Assembly (NCBI GenBank): GCA_006384855.1
Contig: VCJN01002477.1
Location: 124,001 to 188,000, forward strand
Direction of reading: 5' to 3'
Source: Tetraselmis striata
Lineage: Eukaryota > Chlorophyta > Chlorodendrophyceae > Chlorodendrales > Chlorodendraceae
Length of the DNA: 64,000 nucleotides
In this document: one piece after another, positions 21,417-63,496 of the stretch
Layout: each line of letters opens with the position of its first letter
How positions within the stretch are numbered: the first letter of the stretch is position 1
Made by a program: the position numbers and the translations under genes
Notes under the pieces: model-generated
What the model was told of the DNA's origin: nothing
Seen by the model: the letters and a program-made list of their open reading frames with translations, nothing else
Databases searched by the model: none

Positions 21417-21669
21417 AAAGTAATAAAAAGTAAAGTTCGCCCCGGGACATCGGCCGAAGCCGCCTATGCACGACCTCTTGCGCGAACTACTGCAGTCGTA
21501 TGTCTGGCGTAGCCCGCAGACCATTGCCTCATTCGAACTCCGAAGAGCTATTGCATCAACCGAGTAAATCCGGGACACGCCGGGACGATACTGCCGAAAT
21601 ACATCGACAAGGAGTCGATCCCGGGACTTCTCGCGTACGAGACGACCGCTCAACCGAGCGGACAAAGGA
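21417..21669 (-). mobile_element. tRNA-derived SINE, copy A (full or near-full length)
   Basis: A 253-bp element in minus orientation between perfect 12-bp direct repeats. Read on the minus strand, the head is tRNA-like: GTCCGCTCGGTTGAGCGG (box A region and D-arm), a CTCGTACGCGAG anticodon-arm-like palindrome, and GGATCGACTCC (box B). A conserved body follows, containing CGTCCCGGCGTGT, TTCGAATGAGGCAATGGTCT and GATGTCCCGGGGCGAACTTT, ending in an ACTTTTTATTACTTTT tail. Box A/B promoters imply RNA polymerase III transcription and mobilisation by a LINE. Three relatives lie at 23.37, 29.16 and 63.27 kb. Confidence 0.92.
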
Positions 21670-21681
21670 TGCAAGGAAGTA
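21670..21681. repeat. Target-site duplication of SINE copy A (right)
   Basis: Exact second copy of TGCAAGGAAGTA. Confidence 0.9.
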
Positions 21682-22658: not shown

Positions 22659-23369
22659 GATCGAGCATAAATACATTCCATACTCATGTCCGTACCCTTC
22701 TACGAGTAAGGATTACCAGTACTACGATGAATCGGTGTATATGGGGATACAGCAGGCGCGCAGAATGGGACTACGGGTACGGAAACGGGCAGGGTAACAC
22801 TCATCACACAATAAAGATCTGCCATCCGTGCTGTGCAATCGGATGAATGCCGCTGGACCGCTCGGCAGATCAGCATGCCAGCAGCAAGCCGCGTGTACCG
22901 TACTGGTGCCTACATCTGCTCATCGTAGTGATCTGCTTGATGCAATATGCGCTTTTTCACATTTTCGCTCCCCGAGGGCGGGCGGGCGATCGAGTGAGTA
23001 AGGATTTACCAGTAGTACGAGCGCGGATGATAGTCGCTAAGAAATCTGTGTGGATTTCTTGAATGTTGCGTCTAGCTCATGTAATCAATAGTCGCTAAAT
23101 AATTACAGTTCGCAGTTCCACCTCGCAATTGCTGTAGAGGACCTTTCCGATTGTTTATTACATGAACTAGCAGCAGAAGGCGATATCGGAAATCACCAAA
23201 AAAAAGGCACCTTTCCGATTGTCCTTTTCTAGTTTTGTGGTGATTTTCTGAACTACAGTACTTTCTTTAATGTTGCAGCTAGCACATGTAATCACATAAA
23301 CCACACACAGTACTGATCACCTTTTGCTGCTAGCCCATGTAAATAATAGAGTAATCCTTACAAGGTACA
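22659..23369. other. Repeat-rich non-coding stretch
   Basis: No gene. Contains fragments of the GCTAGCTCATGTAA family in both orientations (23060-23085, 23118-23198, 23265-23340) around a poly-A run near 23199. Confidence 0.5.
23118..23198. repeat. Dispersed repeat, rearranged copy
   Basis: The family head (CTGTAGAGGACCTTTCCGATTG) is in plus orientation and is followed at once by a minus-orientation tail (TTACATGAACTAGCAGCAG ... GGAAATCACC), making an inverted composite. A further CCTTTCCGATTGTCC head follows at 23210. Confidence 0.6.
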
Positions 23370-23642
23370 TCCTTTGCCCGCTCGGTTGAGCGGTCGTCTC
23401 GTACACGAGAGGTCCCGGGATCGACTCCTGGTCGATGTATCTCGGCAATATCGTCCCGGCGTGTTCGGGGTTTCCCCGGTGGATGCATTTAGCTCGTCGG
23501 GGTTCGTAAATTAGCTCTTCGGGGTTCGAATGATGCAATGGTCTACGGGCTACGCTGCCAGACCTACCGTACGACCGCAGTTGGCGCAAGAGGTCAAGGG
23601 CTGCTGGGGCGGCTGCGGCCGATGTCCCATGGCGAGCTTTAC
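23370..23642 (+). mobile_element. tRNA-derived SINE, copy B
   Basis: Same head and body as copy A in plus orientation: GCCCGCTCGGTTGAGCGG, CTCGTACACGAG, box B GGATCGACTCC, then the TCGGCAATATCGTCCCGGCG block and GGTCTACGGGCTACGC. It carries an internal duplication of about 30 bp around TTAGCTCGTCGGGGTTCG. The 3' end is cut at GGCGAGCTTTAC without the T-rich tail, and no duplication of the target site is evident, so it is an older copy. Confidence 0.88.
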
Positions 23643-28899: not shown

Positions 28900-29161
28900 A
28901 GTGGGCAGGTGGTGGTGGTGGCGGCGGCGGAGCCCGTGATCTGCTGGGCCCATCGCATGCGCATTGTGGGTATATGGCCCACCCCCGCCCGCCGCGAAAA
29001 CTACATCCCATCTGCCTTGGGGTGTCAGCTACGAGGCCTGACCGTTGGTTACGGTTATGACGACCTCCGTTGCTCAGAAATTCTATTTAACTACTTAGTG
29101 CACCTAGGTGCACTATAGGTGTACCGGGGTTCACGTCCGTTAGCCGGAAAGATAAGGTACA

Positions 29162-29401
29162 TCCCTTGTCCGCTCGGTTGAGCGGTCGTCTCGTACGCGA
29201 GAGGTACCTGGATCGATTCCTGGCCGATGAATTTTCGGCAATATCGTCCCGGCGTGTCATGGGTTTCCCCGGTAGATGCATTAATCCTTCGGGGTTCGAA
29301 TGAGGCAATGGTCTACGAGCCATGCCAGAGCTACGACTGCAGTTGACGCAAGAGGTCAAGTGCCGGGGCGGCTTTGGGGCGAACTTTACTTCACTTTTAC
29401 G
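29162..29401 (+). mobile_element. tRNA-derived SINE, copy C
   Basis: Plus-strand copy with head GTCCGCTCGGTTGAGCGG, CTCGTACGCGAG, box B GGATCGATTCC (closest of the four to the tRNA consensus), the CGTCCCGGCGTGT body, TTCGAATGAGGCAATGGTCT and the GCGAACTTTACTTCACTTTT tail. Both this copy and copy B are preceded by AAGGTACATCC, so the true head may begin about eight bases upstream. No clear target duplication. Confidence 0.9.
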
Positions 29402-55986: not shown

Positions 55987-58900
55987 CTACGGCGTGGCCC
56001 CGGCGTAGTCGGCGGCGGGGAAGTTGGTGATGGCCCGGGGCCCCTGCGTGTCCAGCACAAAGCGGTCGTACGCGCGCGCGGCCTCCTCCTCGCCGCGGTA
56101 CGCGCCGATCTCGGTGCGCTGCTTGCGGCCGCGGCCCGCGCGCTGCGTGGCGTACGCCGACCACAGGCCGCTGCGCTCACGGCGGGCGGCGGCGGGCGTA
56201 GTCAGGGAGGGGCCTCTGCGTTTATTAGCTGGGCGGAAACCGTTGAATAAGTGGCGTTTCTGCAACTGCGCGTTGTTGGTTGGTTAACAGCGGTATGCGA
56301 TGCCGACCGACCAACGGTTTTACCCGCGGCTAATGCCAATGCAATAGCGACGCAGTGCAGTGCCCCCCCCCCCCCCCCCCCCCCCCAGCAAATCGAGATA
56401 ATAATATATCAATGGAATGACCTGTGAGTGGCGGCACGGAAAGGAAATTGATGCACACCCAAATATCGGAAGCAAGTGCTATTTATGATGCTGAAACGAT
56501 GTCCACTGAAATGATGGCATATTTATGGATGGGCAGTACAGGCTGGGAGGGCGCGCACCTCCGCTGATTCCAGCTGACGCCCATGTACGTGGAGCGCCTG
56601 TCGGCGGCCGAGTCCCCGCCGTCGGCCGCCCGACTGCTCTGGGCGCCGGGTGCTGGTGGGGACGGCGCGCTGGTTTGGTACTGTTCCCTGCGAGACGATT
56701 GGGAGCAAGGCAGCCGGGTCGAAACTCGTGCAGCACCCTTTTCCGAGTTGAATACATCTAATTCAATCGAGTCGGAATTGGCTCGGCCGCTATCGGGCGA
56801 TACCTGCTGAAATTGAGCAGCGCTCGCCGGCCATACAGGTCGAGCGCGGCCCAGTCGTACGCTCGCGCGGCCGCCTCGGCGGTGTCGAAGGTGCCCAGCG
56901 GCTGCAGGTCGCCCTCGTACGTGATAAAAGCCGACCACTGCTCGCGGCGGCGCAGCCACTTGACGCCGCGGTACTGCCGCTCGCCGGCGCCGTCGTCGCC
57001 CTGCTGCGGCGGTCGCGCGGGCCGGCCGCGCTTCCGGGGCCGGGCCTCCGGAGACAGCTCCTCCTGGTCCCAGTCCCCCCGGTCCGTCGCGACGCCGGAT
57101 GACGCCGCCCTGGACATCGAGCTCGTGGCGGCGGTCCCCGCCGGTACCCGTGAAGTAGACGGCGCCGCCGGCGCCGACGCCCGCCCGACGGGAGGTGGCG
57201 GCCGCGCCTTCAATACCACAGTCGCGGCGTTCGTCGGCCTCGTCCTGGGCCGCTCGACAGGCCACGTCCAGACCTCTGTGCACGGCCCGCTCCCGTCGAC
57301 GGTGGAGCCACCCTGGGCCCCGGTTACGCTGATGGTGCCTGCTGCCGGCAAACCGACGAGTCTTGTGTTGAGACTCGGTACGGCTGATGTAGCGATTCAG
57401 CGGGTGTGAACGCCGTTGTGAACAAGAGGCACATCTGACAGCCTTAATCGCAAAATCAATGGGCTTGATTCGGAGCTAAAAAAACAGCAGTGGCCTGGTT
57501 GCTCGTCTTTTGTTTGGGTTCTTGGATGCTGTGTTTAGATTATATTCCTATGTATTGTTTTGGATAATCCCTTATCTTATATGCCGCATGACTCATACAC
57601 AATATTACTGTGATTTCTTACCATGGGTCCCAGCAGTCGGAGCCGTGATTCAGCGCCCGCCGGCGACGCGATATACCGGGCGACGGCGGTGTTGCGGGAT
57701 TTCGACCCGCCTCGAGCGCACCTTTGGGACAGCCGGCTATCCAGTAGTCCAGCGAGGCGCCCAAGCTGCCGTCGTCCATCACCGCGTGGACGAGCTCCAG
57801 TTGCCCTGCCAGATGACCTTTGTAGCCCAGACGCACAAAATCCCCGATGCCCACCTGCAACACGTGCGGGATGTCGGAGCATCCCCTCAGATGCGGCCAG
57901 CCGTCCACTCGCATTGCAGAGAGTTAGCTTTGGGTAGCGACTAAGATGTTTGTTCGTCAAAATATGAACAATGAGACGATGCGCGCCACCGTGAACATCC
58001 TTCATAAACCGCATTCGCGACGAGTAGAAACCGGCCGAATTGGACTTTCCCGCATGTACACCTCGGGACGAGTCCGATCGGAGTCGGCATACGACGATAT
58101 CGGCGATCGGAGTCGGCATCGATGATATCGGCGCCCGGAAAGCGGCCCGTTTAGTGCCACGCACCTGCGAGCTTCCACCATCGAGCAGCACCGTCATCGA
58201 CTCCGTCAGCAGCTGCCCCCGCGCAGTGCCGCACACCACCGGCAGGCAGTCCGGTAGCACCGTCGCCAGCGCATCCGCCCTGCGTCCTCCGCCGCCGCTC
58301 GATGAGGGCTTATCATCGCCTAGGCAGCTAGCGTCAACCTCCTCTCGAGCCAGAGCATCGGGTACGGTCTTGCATCGCATGTCGACGAGAGCCACGCCGG
58401 GTGTCGACTCGGCAGGTGCTGAGGCAGTCGGGGCTGCAATCCCCCGTGCGTCGGCGGCTTGGGGAGATGGTCGAGCACGCTCACCACGGGTGTACGCCGC
58501 CATCCAGGGGCTGCCCTCCGCATACTCCGCGATCGGAAAATTGAGCGTCGAAGGCGCCAGCGACGGCCACAGCCGGAGCATCATCATGTCATGCGCGCGC
58601 GCTGCCGCATCGGCGCCGCGAAAATGGCCGACGGCGCGCAACACGCCGCGAACAGGGACGGTGCTCAACCACAGTCCGGTGCCGACGATCGGCTCCACGC
58701 CGTGACATATCACGCGCACGCCAGAGGACGGCGCGGCGGCGCCCTGTGGCGACACGTCGGCGGCGGCCGCGACACCCGCATGCACCGCGGCCATCACCTC
58801 CGCAACCGCGTCCTCCGTCAGGCGATCCCCCAGGTCCCCCGTGGTGGCGGCCATCGCAGCTGCCTGCGGGCGAGGCAGGGGTAAACCTGAGTATTTGCAG

Positions 58901-61900
58901 TCCCCCATGTTCTCAGGGGGGGATCTTGTCGGGTCGACGTAATCATTGTAATCGGACTAGCCAACCATGTGAATCAGTGTTGATGTACTACACGTTTTAA
59001 ACACGATCAACGCAGTGGCAGCGACCTCGAATTGGGCACAAGTCGCGAGGGAAGCCGCGCCATCTTACCTCGGAGGCGCGCGCCAGGCGCTCTTGCGCGA
59101 CTTTCTCGACGACGCGCGTGGGAGCGACCCCGGTGTGCCGGGCAGCCCCCCCCAGCGGGGCGCCGGTGCTGACCGCCGACGCGAGACCCAGAACGCAGGT
59201 CAAGCACAGGATGTTGCGGTCGCCGGCGGTGTATGTGTTGGGCGGTAGGCACCGCGCGTGGTAGCAGGTGGGGCAGTTGAGGCAGCGCATCGCGGCCGAG
59301 GCACCCGTTCCCGCGCCCAGGGCCGGAACTGGCTGGCGGCACGAGGCACACGCGTGGGAGGGGCACACAAAGGGGGGCAGGCTGCGGCTCGACGGCGCAC
59401 ACGCGGGGCGGCGGACGCCGGAGGAAGTCGTGGCTGCCATAGGAGAGGCTGCGCCGACCTGCCAGCGGATGTCGCCGTGTGGCCGCTTGCGCAGGCAGCT
59501 AAGATGGAAGGATGCGCCGCAGCTCTGCACGCTACACTGGAACAGCTCCGACTCGGCTATCCCGACCTCGCCACAGTCCGCGCACACCGCCCAGCCGTCC
59601 CGGCACATGGGACAGAACCAGAGCATCCCCTCGTTGTCCGACGCGCTCGGCACGTCGGATGGCTCGAGGCACGCGGCGTGGAAGGCGCGCAGGCAGGTCC
59701 CGTCGCAGCAAAGCACGTCGCCAAGCTGCTTGCACACGGAACAGAAGTCGTCGTTCCAGTCGGCGTCCGCCGCGTCAGGGTTGTGCACCATGGTTGGCGG
59801 CGCCGGGCGGCCGGCGCGCTCGGCCGACCCGGTCCTGGCGGCCGATGCGGCAGCAGGAAGGCGCCGCGCCTGCGCCGACGCCGCCGCGGCCGCGGTGAGC
59901 AACGGGTCGCGCTGGTGCAGCGGCGGGCGGCCCCGGCCTCGACCACGGCCCCGGCCCCGGCCCCGGCCCAAGCCGACGCTCCCCGCAACAGCTGCCAGCG
60001 ACGGTTGAGTCGCTATCGGCAGGACTGTAGCCTTTCGAAACGACGGCGGCTCAAACCTGCATGCGTGGCGCCGCATTATCAGAGCAGGCAGTATCGCAGA
60101 AGGAAACCACCGCTCGACACTGCCAATCGAACGAGCGGAAATGGAAGTCGAGTGCAGCGCGGGCGGCCGCACCGCCGGAGTGTGCCGTCCATATTGGCGT
60201 CCACCCACGGCACCAGCCGCGCGTTCTGGCAGATGTACGCGTCCTCCTCCTCCCCGTCCGAGTCGTTCTCGCCCTTTCGGCAGCCGCGCACCGGCTCCAG
60301 CTCCCACACGCTCATCATCGTCACCACCTCCTGGCCCTCCTCCTCCTCGTCCCAGTACACCTGGCAATCCACAGCATCCACGGAGGCACGTTCAACCTCG
60401 GCCCCGCGTCGACGTGCAACACCACCACCAGCGCATGCCGCCCGCACCTGGATGTTCTCCCACGGCGAGAAGCGCATCGGGTCGCGCGGGTTGCGCTGCT
60501 GCTTGCCCATGATGCGGCCCGCCCAGTACGCACCCTGCGACTGCGCTCCGCCCCAATAAAGTCCGTACGTCAGCATTGCCCACAAGCGCTTCGCCCGCCG
60601 TTCTCCGCCACAATAAGAGGACACGCCGCGGAAGAAGGCGGACGGTGGGGCAGGGTCGGGGAGGGTTTGAGAGGAAGGGGGGGGGCACCAGGTCGTCGGG
60701 ACTCATGTAGAACACGCGGATTCGGTCGCCGATGTCCCACGAATGCGACACTGCCCTCTCGTACCGCGTCCTGTGCGCACGCCGGGGAGGACAATAGCAG
60801 GCCCGGGGTGGATCAGTTGGCAGCGCAGTGACAAAGCGATGCGGTGCGGCGCTTGTGAGCGCGGGTGGTGGAAGTTCCCATTCCACGGAGCGTCACGCGC
60901 TCGGCTTCCATTCAGATGATGGCCAGGCGAAGGTCTGCTGATGCCTCAGACTGGGCTCATTTCTGTGCACGGGTGTGGGCCTAGGTTCCAAACCCTAAAT
61001 AATCAACAAGGGCCCGCAGACCCGACCAGCCCCCCCCCCCCCCCTACACATACTACCCGTGCAAAGCCTTGCCCCCGGGAGAGCCCATCAGAGCCAGGGT
61101 GGAGTTTACGCTCAGCATGTATGTGGCCTGAACTCCGGCTGCATGTAGGATAGGGGCGGCGGTGGTGTGCAATTAAGCGCTCGGAAACCGCGCTTCCAGG
61201 GTTGCCCGTGCGATGCGGGTGCCAAGGGCCCTGCCGTGCCCTGCACCGACCATGCGCGGGGGCGCGCTGAGGACTGCCTTTCCCAAGCCACCATCAGGGG
61301 ATACACCCAGATGCGAGCTTGCCCCTAGCCCAGCACCACCACGCCAGCCCGCAGCAGCAGCAGCGGCAGCATGGCCCCCCTCTGCCCAGTGCGCTCATGG
61401 ACAAGGCAACGCACCGCTTGATGAGGAAGTCCGACACGCCGGTGTCCAGGTAAAAGTCCACTGTGGCGGTGACGGCCGCGTTGGTGCGCCGCCCCGCCGC
61501 GCACGGCAGGGTGCAGCGCCCCTGCTCCGCGCGCCGCAGCGTGAGCCGCACGAAGAAGCCGCTGTAGGAGCGCACCGGGCCACCTACCTGCGCACCACCC
61601 GCAATGGCTGGCCGCCATCAGCATCAGCACCGGCACTGGCGTTGGCCTTGGCACTGCCACGGACAACGCCCAGATCGGCAACAGCGCAAGCATCGCCACT
61701 GGCATCATCATTCGCCTCAGCATTGAAATCGGCATCGGCATCGGCATCGGCAGTGGTGGAGGTAGGAGCATTGTCATCCCCACCGACAACGTCGTTCCCA
61801 TTGCCGTTAACGCCGCCTGGCCGCCCGCCATGCTGAACCCCTCATTTCAGAGGGTTTCATGCGCACCTGGGAGGCGGGGCATCGCCGCATGTACTGCGCG

Positions 61901-62483
61901 CCCACCACCACGCAGTGCTCCACGAGGCCGAGGCGCATGAGCGGCTGCGCCCCGGCGCGCACCGCGGGCAGCAGCCCCGACAGCGCGCGCTCGCCCTGCA
62001 CCCGGCTGCGAAGGCTGCTCCAGCGCGGCTCCTCGTAGGGCAGCCCCAGCGCGCCCAGCTGCTGCTGGTAGCCCTCCTTGAAGAACACCACGGCCATGCC
62101 CAGCGGCGCCACGCTCTGCGTGAACTTGCGGATGAGGAAGCAGCGGTCGGGGTCCAGCGTGGGGTGCGCCAGCTCCACCCACACCGACGGCTTCACGCGC
62201 TCCTGGGCGGGACACAAAATGGTGCAACAAAAAACGATGATAACAGCAACAGCATCCAGGTTCAACCGCTCCTGGCGATAAAAAGTGAGATTTGCAAAAA
62301 AAAAAAAAACACAATTCAAAGTTTACAACAACAAACAGTACGAACAATAACATCCACGGTCCCCCGCTCCTGGCGGGGGCGAAAGGAACGGGAGGTGGGC
62401 GAGAGCGAGTACCCACTCGCGGGGCGGGGGAGGGGGGGGGGGGGGGGTACCTCGACGTGGAGCTCAGCACAGTCGCCCTCCAT
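55987..62483 (-). CDS. Predicted tudor-like / PHD / AT-hook / triple AP2 chromatin-transcription factor
   Basis: Twelve exons: 62483-62451, 62202-61867, 61587-61415, 60770-60689, 60534-60448, 60360-60173, 60056-59069, 58863-58165, 57854-57722, 57341-56804, 56687-56559 and 56170-55987. Every junction is GT-AG and phase-consistent, giving 1189 residues. Residues 1-180 are unrecognised. About 190-270 resemble the PHIP/BRWD cryptic tudor (DIGDRIRVFY, GAYWAGRI, VYWDEEEEGQEV, SVWELEP). An RG repeat lies near 330. PHD fingers span ~405-490 (FCSVC, CDGTC, FHAAC, WFCPMC, then a second) with an NSD-type Cys/His block ~530-575 (CPSHACASC, CPTCYHARC). AP2-like 1 is ~677-745 (AAARAHDMMML, LNFPIAEYA). An AT-hook (KRGRPARP) lies near 1005. 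AP2-2 begins QYRGVKW and AP2-3 STYMGVSWNQ, ending ITNFPAADYA. It may instead be two or three adjacent genes. Confidence 0.65.
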
Positions 62484-62668: not shown

Positions 62669-62705
<37 letters not shown>

Positions 62706-63262
62706 GTGGTCGACGGCGATGAACGACCCCCCCCCCGTCCCCCCCCCCCCCCCCCCCCCCGGGGCAGCTATCCCATTCCACCCCTGGGCCGCCCGTGGCC
62801 CGTCGCCTCTCTCACCTGATGCCCTCCGATGTGCTGGCGAAAGCGGGGGGTGTGAGCAATCGGTTGTACAGGCAAGGCCCAGCGGTGCGTCCGGCGGGGG
62901 TCCTCGGCGGATGCGGGTCCCCGCTGGAGATATGATGAGCTGACCGTTGTGGCTGCTCGATTCCAGTCGGGGCCCAAACCCTAATTCTGCTAGCCCTGCC
63001 TCTTCTTCCGGGGAGAAAAACTCTACGCCCGCCACTGGGAGATGACGCTGCTGCGCGCTGTCTTTCTGAATTACGCTGCTCCCGTCCGTATAAATTATCA
63101 GTACAGGTACGCTTACCCGGGTATTATTGCTCATTCAGATTTAGCCACGACAACATGCAGTCGCTCTTTATGGGGCGTCTTGATTTCGTGATGATTTCGT
63201 GTCACACTGTCGCGGCGGCAGCCAAGCAGCGCAGGCGGTGTCGCGCGCGGCGGAGCAGATCT
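62484..63262. other. 5' flank of the AP2-PHD gene
   Basis: Holds the longest homopolymer in the window (31 G, 62672-62702) and a C run near 62743-62760. An open frame on the minus strand across this part is low-complexity Gly/Pro and not convincing. The right end borders a SINE. Confidence 0.45.
62672..62702. repeat. Poly-G run, 31 nt
   Basis: Uninterrupted G tract, about 190 bp upstream of the AP2-PHD start codon (C on the coding strand). Confidence 0.9.
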
Positions 63263-63274: not shown

Positions 63275-63484
63275 AAGTAAAAGTAAAGTTCGCCCCGGGA
63301 CATCGGCCGAAGCCGCCCCAGCACTTGACCTCGTGCGCCAACTGCAGTCGTAGGTCTGGCATAGCCCAAAGACCATTGCCTCATTCGAACCCCGAAGGGC
63401 TAATGCATCAACCGGGTAAACCCGGTACACGCCGGGCCGATATTGCCGAAATACATCAGCCAGGGATCGAACCCGGGTCTCTCG
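63275..63484 (-). mobile_element. tRNA-derived SINE, copy D (5'-truncated)
   Basis: 210 bp in minus orientation between perfect 12-bp duplications. Read on the minus strand it starts inside the tRNA-like head just before box B, where the plus strand reads GGATCGAACCC, and it keeps the full body to the GCGAACTTTACTTTTACTT tail. Truncation at the head with intact duplication shows LINE-style insertion. Confidence 0.92.
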
Positions 63485-63496
63485 CATCGAGGCGGT
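63485..63496. repeat. Target-site duplication of SINE copy D (right)
   Basis: Exact second copy of CATCGAGGCGGT. Confidence 0.9.

Follow-up and report, generated by a model that had tools for sequence, protein, structure and literature searches.

A 2024 study places the origin of auxin response factors (ARFs) in the streptophyte ancestor, where part of a PHIP gene fused with a RAV/ARF gene, the timing of the recombination being unknown (PMC11685440). According to the same study, the crypto-Tudor of PHIP, a double-Tudor scaffold, binds methylated H3K4, the ARF counterpart seemingly has no need of that activity, and an alpha-helix of the ARF DD serves dimerization (PMC11685440). Surveys describe chlorophytes as lacking the auxin-response domain (2020; PMC7226935) and as carrying the ancillary domain (AD) beside ARID (2018; PMC5873896), and brown algae are mentioned in another source as having the domain (PMC11712027). 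Here, we analyzed a stretch of 64,000 nucleotides (nt) from the chlorophyte Tetraselmis striata (contig VCJN01002477.1, positions 124,001 to 188,000), which we call the window, and describe a minus-strand gene in it that appears to join a crypto-Tudor to PHD fingers, AT-hooks, and AP2 domains.

The predicted protein of 1,190 amino acids (aa) shares with ARFs a double-Tudor scaffold in a DNA-binding protein; its scaffold and that of a paralogue on contig C1367 score over the cut-off of the ARF_AD model, and their matches in the PDB are ARFs. Unlike ARFs, it lacks both a B3 within the scaffold and a PB1, and it adds PHD fingers, while contact with DNA would come from AP2 domains C-terminal of the scaffold. 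It has in common with PHIP/BRWD proteins a crypto-Tudor without B3 and the company of chromatin-protein domains, but it lacks BRWD1_N, WD40, and bromodomain, and it falls below the cut-off for BRWD_AD. Searching Pfam with the whole protein at E ≤ 10, we found no B3, PB1/AUX_IAA, BRWD1_N, WD40, bromodomain, SET, or PWWP. The second and third AP2 domains form a tandem as in the two-AP2 factors of the WRI1/AINTEGUMENTA kind, which to our knowledge carry no Tudor or PHD. The PHD fingers match the cassettes of NSD proteins (PHD_NSD and PHD-1st_NSD over the cut-off) without the SET or PWWP domains. SAND is combined with PHD in AIRE, SP100, and SP140, an arrangement that the window protein would share if a SAND-like stretch is called correctly, but its match is below threshold and has no KWK core. 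In a chlorophyte AD-ARID protein, the AD also lies beside a DNA-binding domain; that domain is ARID rather than AP2, and the AD is the only part of the scaffold reported for it (PMC5873896).

The combination of crypto-Tudor, PHD, and AP2 is very probably real, and it belongs to a family with two loci in T. striata. We think it likely that the window holds a chlorophyte nuclear gene for a DNA-binding chromatin protein and that this gene is one member of a crypto-Tudor-AP2 family, the loci of which are the window gene (two haplotypes, on contigs C1997 and C2193) and the paralogue on C1367. The core of the family would be a crypto-Tudor, that is, the DD-AD fold of PHIP/BRWD and ARFs free of a B3 insertion, with several AP2 domains C-terminal to it. 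What would set the window member apart is a cassette of three NSD-type PHD fingers that separates its scaffold from its AP2 domains, along with two AT-hook cores and perhaps the remnant of a SAND-like stretch. Its features are as follows.

55987..62483, minus strand: whole gene, 12 exons, 1,190 aa; GT-AG introns, one open frame, agreement with the haplotig on C2193
62451..62483, minus strand: exon 1, aa 1-11; start codon tentative; identical in the C2193 haplotig
61867..62202, minus strand: exon 2, aa 12-123; first Tudor of the crypto-Tudor (ARF DD1-like); N terminus of the C1367 paralogue similar
61415..61587, minus strand: exon 3, aa 124-181; completes the first Tudor and begins the ancillary domain
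60689..60770, minus strand: exon 4, aa 181-208; second Tudor/ARF ancillary domain
60448..60540, minus strand: exon 5, aa 209-239; ARF ancillary domain
60173..60360, minus strand: exon 6, aa 240-302; end of ARF ancillary domain and acidic linker
59069..60056, minus strand: exon 7, Gly-Arg tract with AT-hook core (aa 332-346) and three NSD-type PHD fingers (aa 404-586)
58165..58863, minus strand: exon 8, divergent AP2 (about aa 685-741) and start of SAND-like stretch (aa 838)
57722..57854, minus strand: exon 9, second half of SAND-like stretch, tentative
56804..57338, minus strand: exon 10, AT-hook core (aa 1012-1015) and AP2 no. 2
56559..56687, minus strand: exon 11, linker, then the beginning of AP2 no. 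3
55987..56170, minus strand: exon 12, remainder of AP2 no. 3 and stop; the AP2 at aa 1121-1168 crosses 56559/56170

The original prediction had joined twelve exons with no phase conflict, and this held up: the model spans 3,573 nt including the stop codon, all exon phases are compatible, and 11 of 11 introns are GT-AG. The links that it had named at 61415/60770 (phase 2), 59069/58863 (phase 0), and 58165/57854 (phase 0) were correct. The junction predicted at 57722/57341 also stands; its acceptor is a NAGNAG that allows splicing at 57341 or at 57338, a difference of one residue, and our model uses 57338. The final-exon acceptor at 56559/56170 had not been given in that prediction, and we chose it because it makes AP2 no. 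3 continuous. When exon 12 was instead taken from the open frame at 56267, together with other early borders, the joined frame contained stops. Base composition followed the predicted frame, with a third-position G+C content of 0.75 to 0.98 in all 12 exons and the lowest values at second positions in every exon except exon 11. Among the introns, the G+C contents of the three codon positions lay within 0.09 of one another in 9 of 11, with introns 2 and 5 differing by 0.19 and 0.42. Domains run through several of the junctions, the crypto-Tudor through exons 2 to 6 and AP2 no. 3 through exons 11 and 12. The haplotig frame, the codon G+C, the Pfam matches, and the junction-crossing domains confirm that the 12-exon gene is more than chance. 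A TGTAA, which we take to be the green-algal poly(A) signal, lies 176 nt past the stop of the gene and about 136 nt past that of the C1367 paralogue. Upstream of exon 1, plus-strand frames of a seemingly divergent neighbour gene start at about 63.8 kb and continue into C1997:188 kb, and such a gene would bound the window gene on its 5' side.

In the assembly that was searched throughout (224 Mb; 2,903 contigs), the window lies on contig C1997. Contig C2193 is collinear with window positions 45.8 to 64 kb at 93 to 97% identity, and we read it as the other haplotype. Its copy keeps 12 of 12 exons in frame and retains all 11 GT and 11 AG borders; the sole exon indel is an in-frame 6-nt insertion in the Gly-Arg tract of exon 7. 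In the introns, alignment gaps occur in 8 of 11, and the length difference is not divisible by three in 6 of 11. Neither haplotype has a frameshift or a stop. Over the whole frame the haplotypes differ by an amino acid at 25 codons and silently at 26 (nonsynonymous divergence [dN] = 0.0105, synonymous divergence [dS] = 0.0301, dN/dS ~ 0.35). The scaffold, PHD, and AP2 stretches, which were drawn by hand and cover 664 codons, hold 4 amino-acid and 10 silent differences, and the remainder of the protein holds 21 and 16, including 3 and 1 in the SAND-like stretch. This distribution fits selection on the scaffold, PHD, and AP2 stretches, with per-domain numbers that are small.

These data bear on the possibility that the gene, though real, is a chance or decaying fusion, a lineage-specific oddity without joint function that is becoming a pseudogene. 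AP2 no. 1 is divergent, the linkers are long and of low complexity, the SAND-like stretch lacks its KWK core and differs between haplotypes by more amino-acid than silent changes, and 21 of the 25 amino-acid differences lie in parts of the protein other than the scaffold, PHD, and AP2 stretches. A gene in decay is nevertheless hard to reconcile with two haplotypes free of frameshifts and stops, with so few amino-acid changes in the scaffold, PHD, and AP2 stretches, with the overall dN/dS, and with an order of scaffold and AP2 that is common to two loci, and we regard this explanation as very improbable.

We then assigned the scaffold using profile models. ARF_AD (PF06507) matched aa 177-263 with 39.4 bits in the whole protein and 42.2 bits as an isolated piece (Pfam curated cut-off, 27), whereas BRWD_AD reached 22.2 and 25.1 bits, under its cut-off of 40. 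The scaffold of the C1367 paralogue behaved similarly (ARF_AD, 32.2 bits; BRWD_AD, 23.7 bits). As a control, a human PHIP sequence, which here and below was entered by hand, gave the reverse pattern (ARF_AD, 25.8; BRWD_AD, 124.5). The N-terminal part of the window scaffold can be aligned both with the first human PHIP Tudor and with the C1367 paralogue, and as the alignment to human PHIP extends over both Tudors, we call the scaffold a crypto-Tudor. Inserts relative to human PHIP are short and well below the size of a B3. From these alignments, the whole double Tudor appears to be present with no B3 inserted. All PDB sequences that matched at E ≤ 10 were ARFs (5 of 5 for the window scaffold and 4 of 4 for that of C1367); because the hand-entered human PHIP also retrieves ARFs alone, with no solved PHIP crypto-Tudor among its matches, the PDB cannot separate the two families. 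The ancillary domain is fairly described as intermediate: the ARF model recognizes it, and the BRWD model does not. In a model-based survey, the red alga Chondrus crispus was scored as gaining "ARF" (PMC8304369), and a model match alone therefore does not make an ARF. The original prediction of a PHIP-like Tudor was right about the presence of a Tudor and too narrow in its label, as we found a complete crypto-Tudor of the sort common to PHIP/BRWD and ARFs, with ARF_AD over the cut-off.

Could the gene instead be a genuine member of the PHIP/BRWD or ARF family, with its remaining domains overlooked? The 2024 study describes the crypto-Tudor as common to both families (PMC11685440), which would allow it. 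The protein, however, contains no WD40, bromodomain, B3, or PB1 at the Pfam threshold given above. Of the frames that lie upstream of exon 1, the 24 longest were inspected by eye and none looked WD40-like, the divergent gene seems to start there, and BRWD_AD stays under its cut-off. The genome also has a BRWD/PHIP-type locus elsewhere (L051-L052, G000:C1956:118.5-131.7 kb), and because of this separate locus the window gene is not a mis-called PHIP. We therefore consider a true PHIP or ARF to be highly improbable.

The locus on C1956 matches BRWD1_N (PF25437) with 49.6 to 50.4 bits (cut-off, 27) and has one WD40 repeat at 30.4 bits (cut-off, 27), with weaker WD40 matches in two other frames under that value; its bromodomain, at 14.9 bits, is below the cut-off of 21.7. 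Spliced by eye, its crypto-Tudor was recognized by neither ARF_AD nor BRWD_AD in Pfam. Smith-Waterman scores of this crypto-Tudor were 56 against the window scaffold and 75 against that of C1367, compared with 196 between the latter two, which are also closer to ARFs and to the hand-entered human PHIP than to the C1956 crypto-Tudor. Given this low similarity, either the two AP2 genes did not copy the domain recently or the C1956 domain has changed fast.

The paralogue on C1367 (L013), which the original prediction did not include, can be modelled as 8 exons separated by GT-AG introns (7 of 7) and would encode 1,120 aa. Its crypto-Tudor, with an N-terminal stretch like that of the window protein, is followed by four AP2 domains (85 bits over 4 stretches). 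In the exon with its AP2 no. 1, no methionine (Met) lies ahead of the domain; because of this, and given an ATG start, AP2 no. 1 must be spliced from upstream, which is the side of the scaffold exon. This constraint on the C1367 gene provides the best evidence that scaffold and AP2 would form one protein in the crypto-Tudor-AP2 family. Genome searches with either scaffold returned only the C1997/C2193 and C1367 loci and one weak extra match (C2193:37587; E = 0.3), counts that are lower bounds. The ARF_AD and BRWD_AD profiles each gave a single weak match in the genome, both on C1367, and missed the window copy because its exons are short. A genome search for B3 had no match, as did its controls, so absence is not demonstrated; the hand-entered human PHIP crypto-Tudor likewise had no match in the genome and missed the C1367 and C1956 loci as well, which makes that search uninformative.

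Several observations weigh against a single protein of this architecture or against our placement of it. No domain crosses 60173/60056, between scaffold and PHD fingers, or 59069/58863, between PHD fingers and AP2, and the sole evidence for these two junctions is splice consensus, phase, the haplotig, and the order of domains. Possible start Met codons occur in the PHD exon (exon 7) and in the AP2 exon (exon 8). In the Pfam listing, the C1367 paralogue has no PHD, and the PHD cassette was found in the genome only at its own locus, in the haplotig, and as a weak match on C1060 (E = 0.0016). No relative was confirmed outside the genome among viral and genome contigs that came mainly from prokaryotes and viruses with few eukaryotes, a sample from which nothing follows. 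Pairwise scores of the window scaffold were 98 against the hand-entered human PHIP and 89 and 103 against two ARFs, which themselves scored 72 and 71 against human PHIP; because these scores are even, placement on the ARF side rests on the profile models. Lastly, the ARF Tudor cage is reported as dispensable in the 2024 study (PMC11685440), which weakens the case for histone reading by the Tudor.

Part of this evidence would be expected if two or three adjacent genes on the same strand, one with scaffold plus PHD fingers and one with AP2 domains, had been joined on paper. The gaps at 59068-58864 (205 nt) and 60172-60057 (116 nt) are the ones that no domain crosses, and the Met codons lie before PHD1 in exon 7 and near the start of exon 8, where separate genes could begin. 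Yet GT-AG borders and phase are perfect at both gaps in both haplotypes, the C1367 model unites scaffold and AP2 with no Met of its own for AP2 no. 1, and 205 nt would leave little space for the end of one gene and the promoter of another. The 205-nt gap contains no TGTAA, which is weak evidence at a frequency of 0.58 per kb. On balance, separate genes are unlikely. The original prediction had accepted that it would be contradicted by homologues in which different genes encode the PHD and AP2 parts, and this is partly the case, since the C1367 paralogue has no PHD fingers, yet it keeps scaffold and AP2 together. We continue to favor a single gene that combines Tudor, PHD, and AT-hook with three AP2 domains, and this part of the original prediction is supported.

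The hidden Markov model check that had been proposed for the joined protein placed ARF_AD, the NSD-type PHD fingers, and AP2 over their curated Pfam cut-offs. Across the PHD cassette (aa 404-586), PHD_NSD scored 42.4, PHD-1st_NSD 36.3, and PHD 35.5 bits, all over the cut-off, and PHDvar_NSD scored 26.8 bits, just below its cut-off of 27; the PHD exon had no match in NCBIfam. AT-hook cores (RGRP) are found at aa 343-346 and 1012-1015. The Pfam AP2 model gave 48 bits over two stretches (cut-off, 33.3), which places the protein among AP2 proteins, and AP2 no. 2 and no. 3 together gave a tandem alignment to WRI1 with 57.6 bits, compared with 20.2 bits for the RAV protein TEM1. The AP2 of exon 8 was not listed by Pfam AP2. 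A profile built from 18 AP2 stretches of the same genome, among them the other AP2 domains of the window gene and the paralogue, nevertheless scored it at 32.0 bits, and the best of 1,000 shuffles reached 7.8 bits. The degenerate first AP2 copy that had been predicted is thus real. Its supposed decay found no support: the copy is divergent, but in it the haplotypes differ by 0 amino-acid and 1 silent change, a number too small to speak for or against decay.

Exons 8 and 9 may carry a SAND-like remnant, a call that we make tentatively. SAND was the only family that Pfam listed for the stretch (E = 0.24; 11.6 bits against a cut-off of 22; 20 of 76 positions). Against a SAND of the same genome, on C216, it scored 53, a value reached by 0 of 2,000 shuffles; this was one of three SAND stretches of the genome tried, and the other two, which lack the CG half, did not align. 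With a profile built from SAND sequences of this genome and the PDB, the piece scored 11.0 bits and the whole protein 6.9, compared with 6.6 for the best of 2,000 shuffles, over positions 2-19 of 60. With a match below threshold and no KWK core, we do not count the stretch as a SAND domain. Separately, three SAND matches, one of them below the cut-off, lie within about 5 kb at G000:C216:4001-9174 and possibly represent a tandem of SAND genes.

How might such a protein work? Short DNA motifs are the targets of AP2 domains and the minor groove is that of AT-hooks, whereas H3 tails are common ligands of PHD fingers. In the window protein, sequence-specific DNA binding would come from the two ordinary AP2 domains, the AT-hooks would add affinity for the minor groove, and the PHD fingers, perhaps with the second Tudor, would dock on modified H3 tails, so that binding would require both the right DNA motif and the right chromatin state at one site. 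As in ARFs, the main role of the double Tudor may be that of a rigid scaffold and not that of a reader. In its simplest functional reading, the protein would be a sequence-specific factor tuned by chromatin state, with the double Tudor as scaffold or reader, and the self-contained DNA-and-chromatin reader of the original prediction is a putative role. What the sequence itself shows is the open frame, the domain content, the C1367 paralogue, and a BRWD-type locus elsewhere in the genome.

The architecture had been predicted to be unusual, and this agrees with the literature covered: we found no published description of a crypto-Tudor-AP2 or PHD-AP2 protein from green algae in a search of the main texts of mostly open-access journal articles. 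As far as these searches go, the combination of domains is new and its parts are known. The family may have arisen when the crypto-Tudor of an ancient PHIP-like gene was joined to an AP2 gene, after which one copy would have gained the PHD fingers or the other lost them. Such a fusion of scaffold and AP2 would parallel, or conceivably predate, the origin of ARFs. If the gene models hold, at least one union of an ARF-type scaffold with DNA-binding domains took place outside the ARF lineage, and crypto-Tudor-AP2 sequences allow one to test whether scaffold and DNA-binding domains fused once or twice. The main value of the locus would lie in this independent, possibly ancestral, case of an ARF scaffold in a DNA-binding protein, and the PHD-bearing member would be a rare plant-type transcription factor with its own histone readers.

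A bolder version holds that the fusion of a PHIP-derived crypto-Tudor with plant DNA-binding domains predates the split of chlorophytes and streptophytes, crypto-Tudor-AP2 proteins being relatives of the ARF precursor before it gained B3. If so, it would have been an AP2 protein that brought the ARF scaffold into transcription factors, with no direct entry into a RAV/B3 gene. We consider this improbable; the AP2 pair is nearer to WRI1 than to the RAV protein TEM1, by the bit scores given above, and the family was seen in one genome only, both of which count against it.

Other features of the window and the genome were noted in passing. Long G or C homopolymer runs occur in introns and upstream regions, at about 62670-62760 and 56360-56385 in the window and near 2421 and 3482 of the C1367 locus (L013). 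A SINE (short interspersed nuclear element)-like repeat of about 200 to 280 bp is present at window positions 63285-63486, 21432-21671, 29154-29377, and 23362-23640 and at L009 1654-1898. It contains the box GGGTTCGATCCC, presumably an RNA polymerase III B box, and ARAGORN found no tRNA in it. The repeat is polymorphic between haplotypes, with empty sites on the opposite haplotype, and is flanked by duplications (GTAGCTCGTA at the L009 copy and CATCGAGGCGGT at the window copy).

A gene for the Rubisco small subunit (RbcS; L035 1315-1956, minus strand; G000:C1745:67761-68102) has a C-terminal extension of proline-glycine-tyrosine repeats after an ordinary domain. Its nearest chain was 7jfo_B, which we take to be from Chlamydomonas (176.6 bits, with the loop region ungapped), and 4rub, 1aus, 4hhh, and similar chains, presumably from land plants, scored about 110 to 127 bits; the length of this RbcS loop separates chlorophytes from land plants. 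The genome accordingly belongs to the green lineage and is most likely that of a chlorophyte. A light-harvesting protein matched chlorophyll a/b binding proteins, and the top two among the 60 matches listed were LHCI repeat chains.

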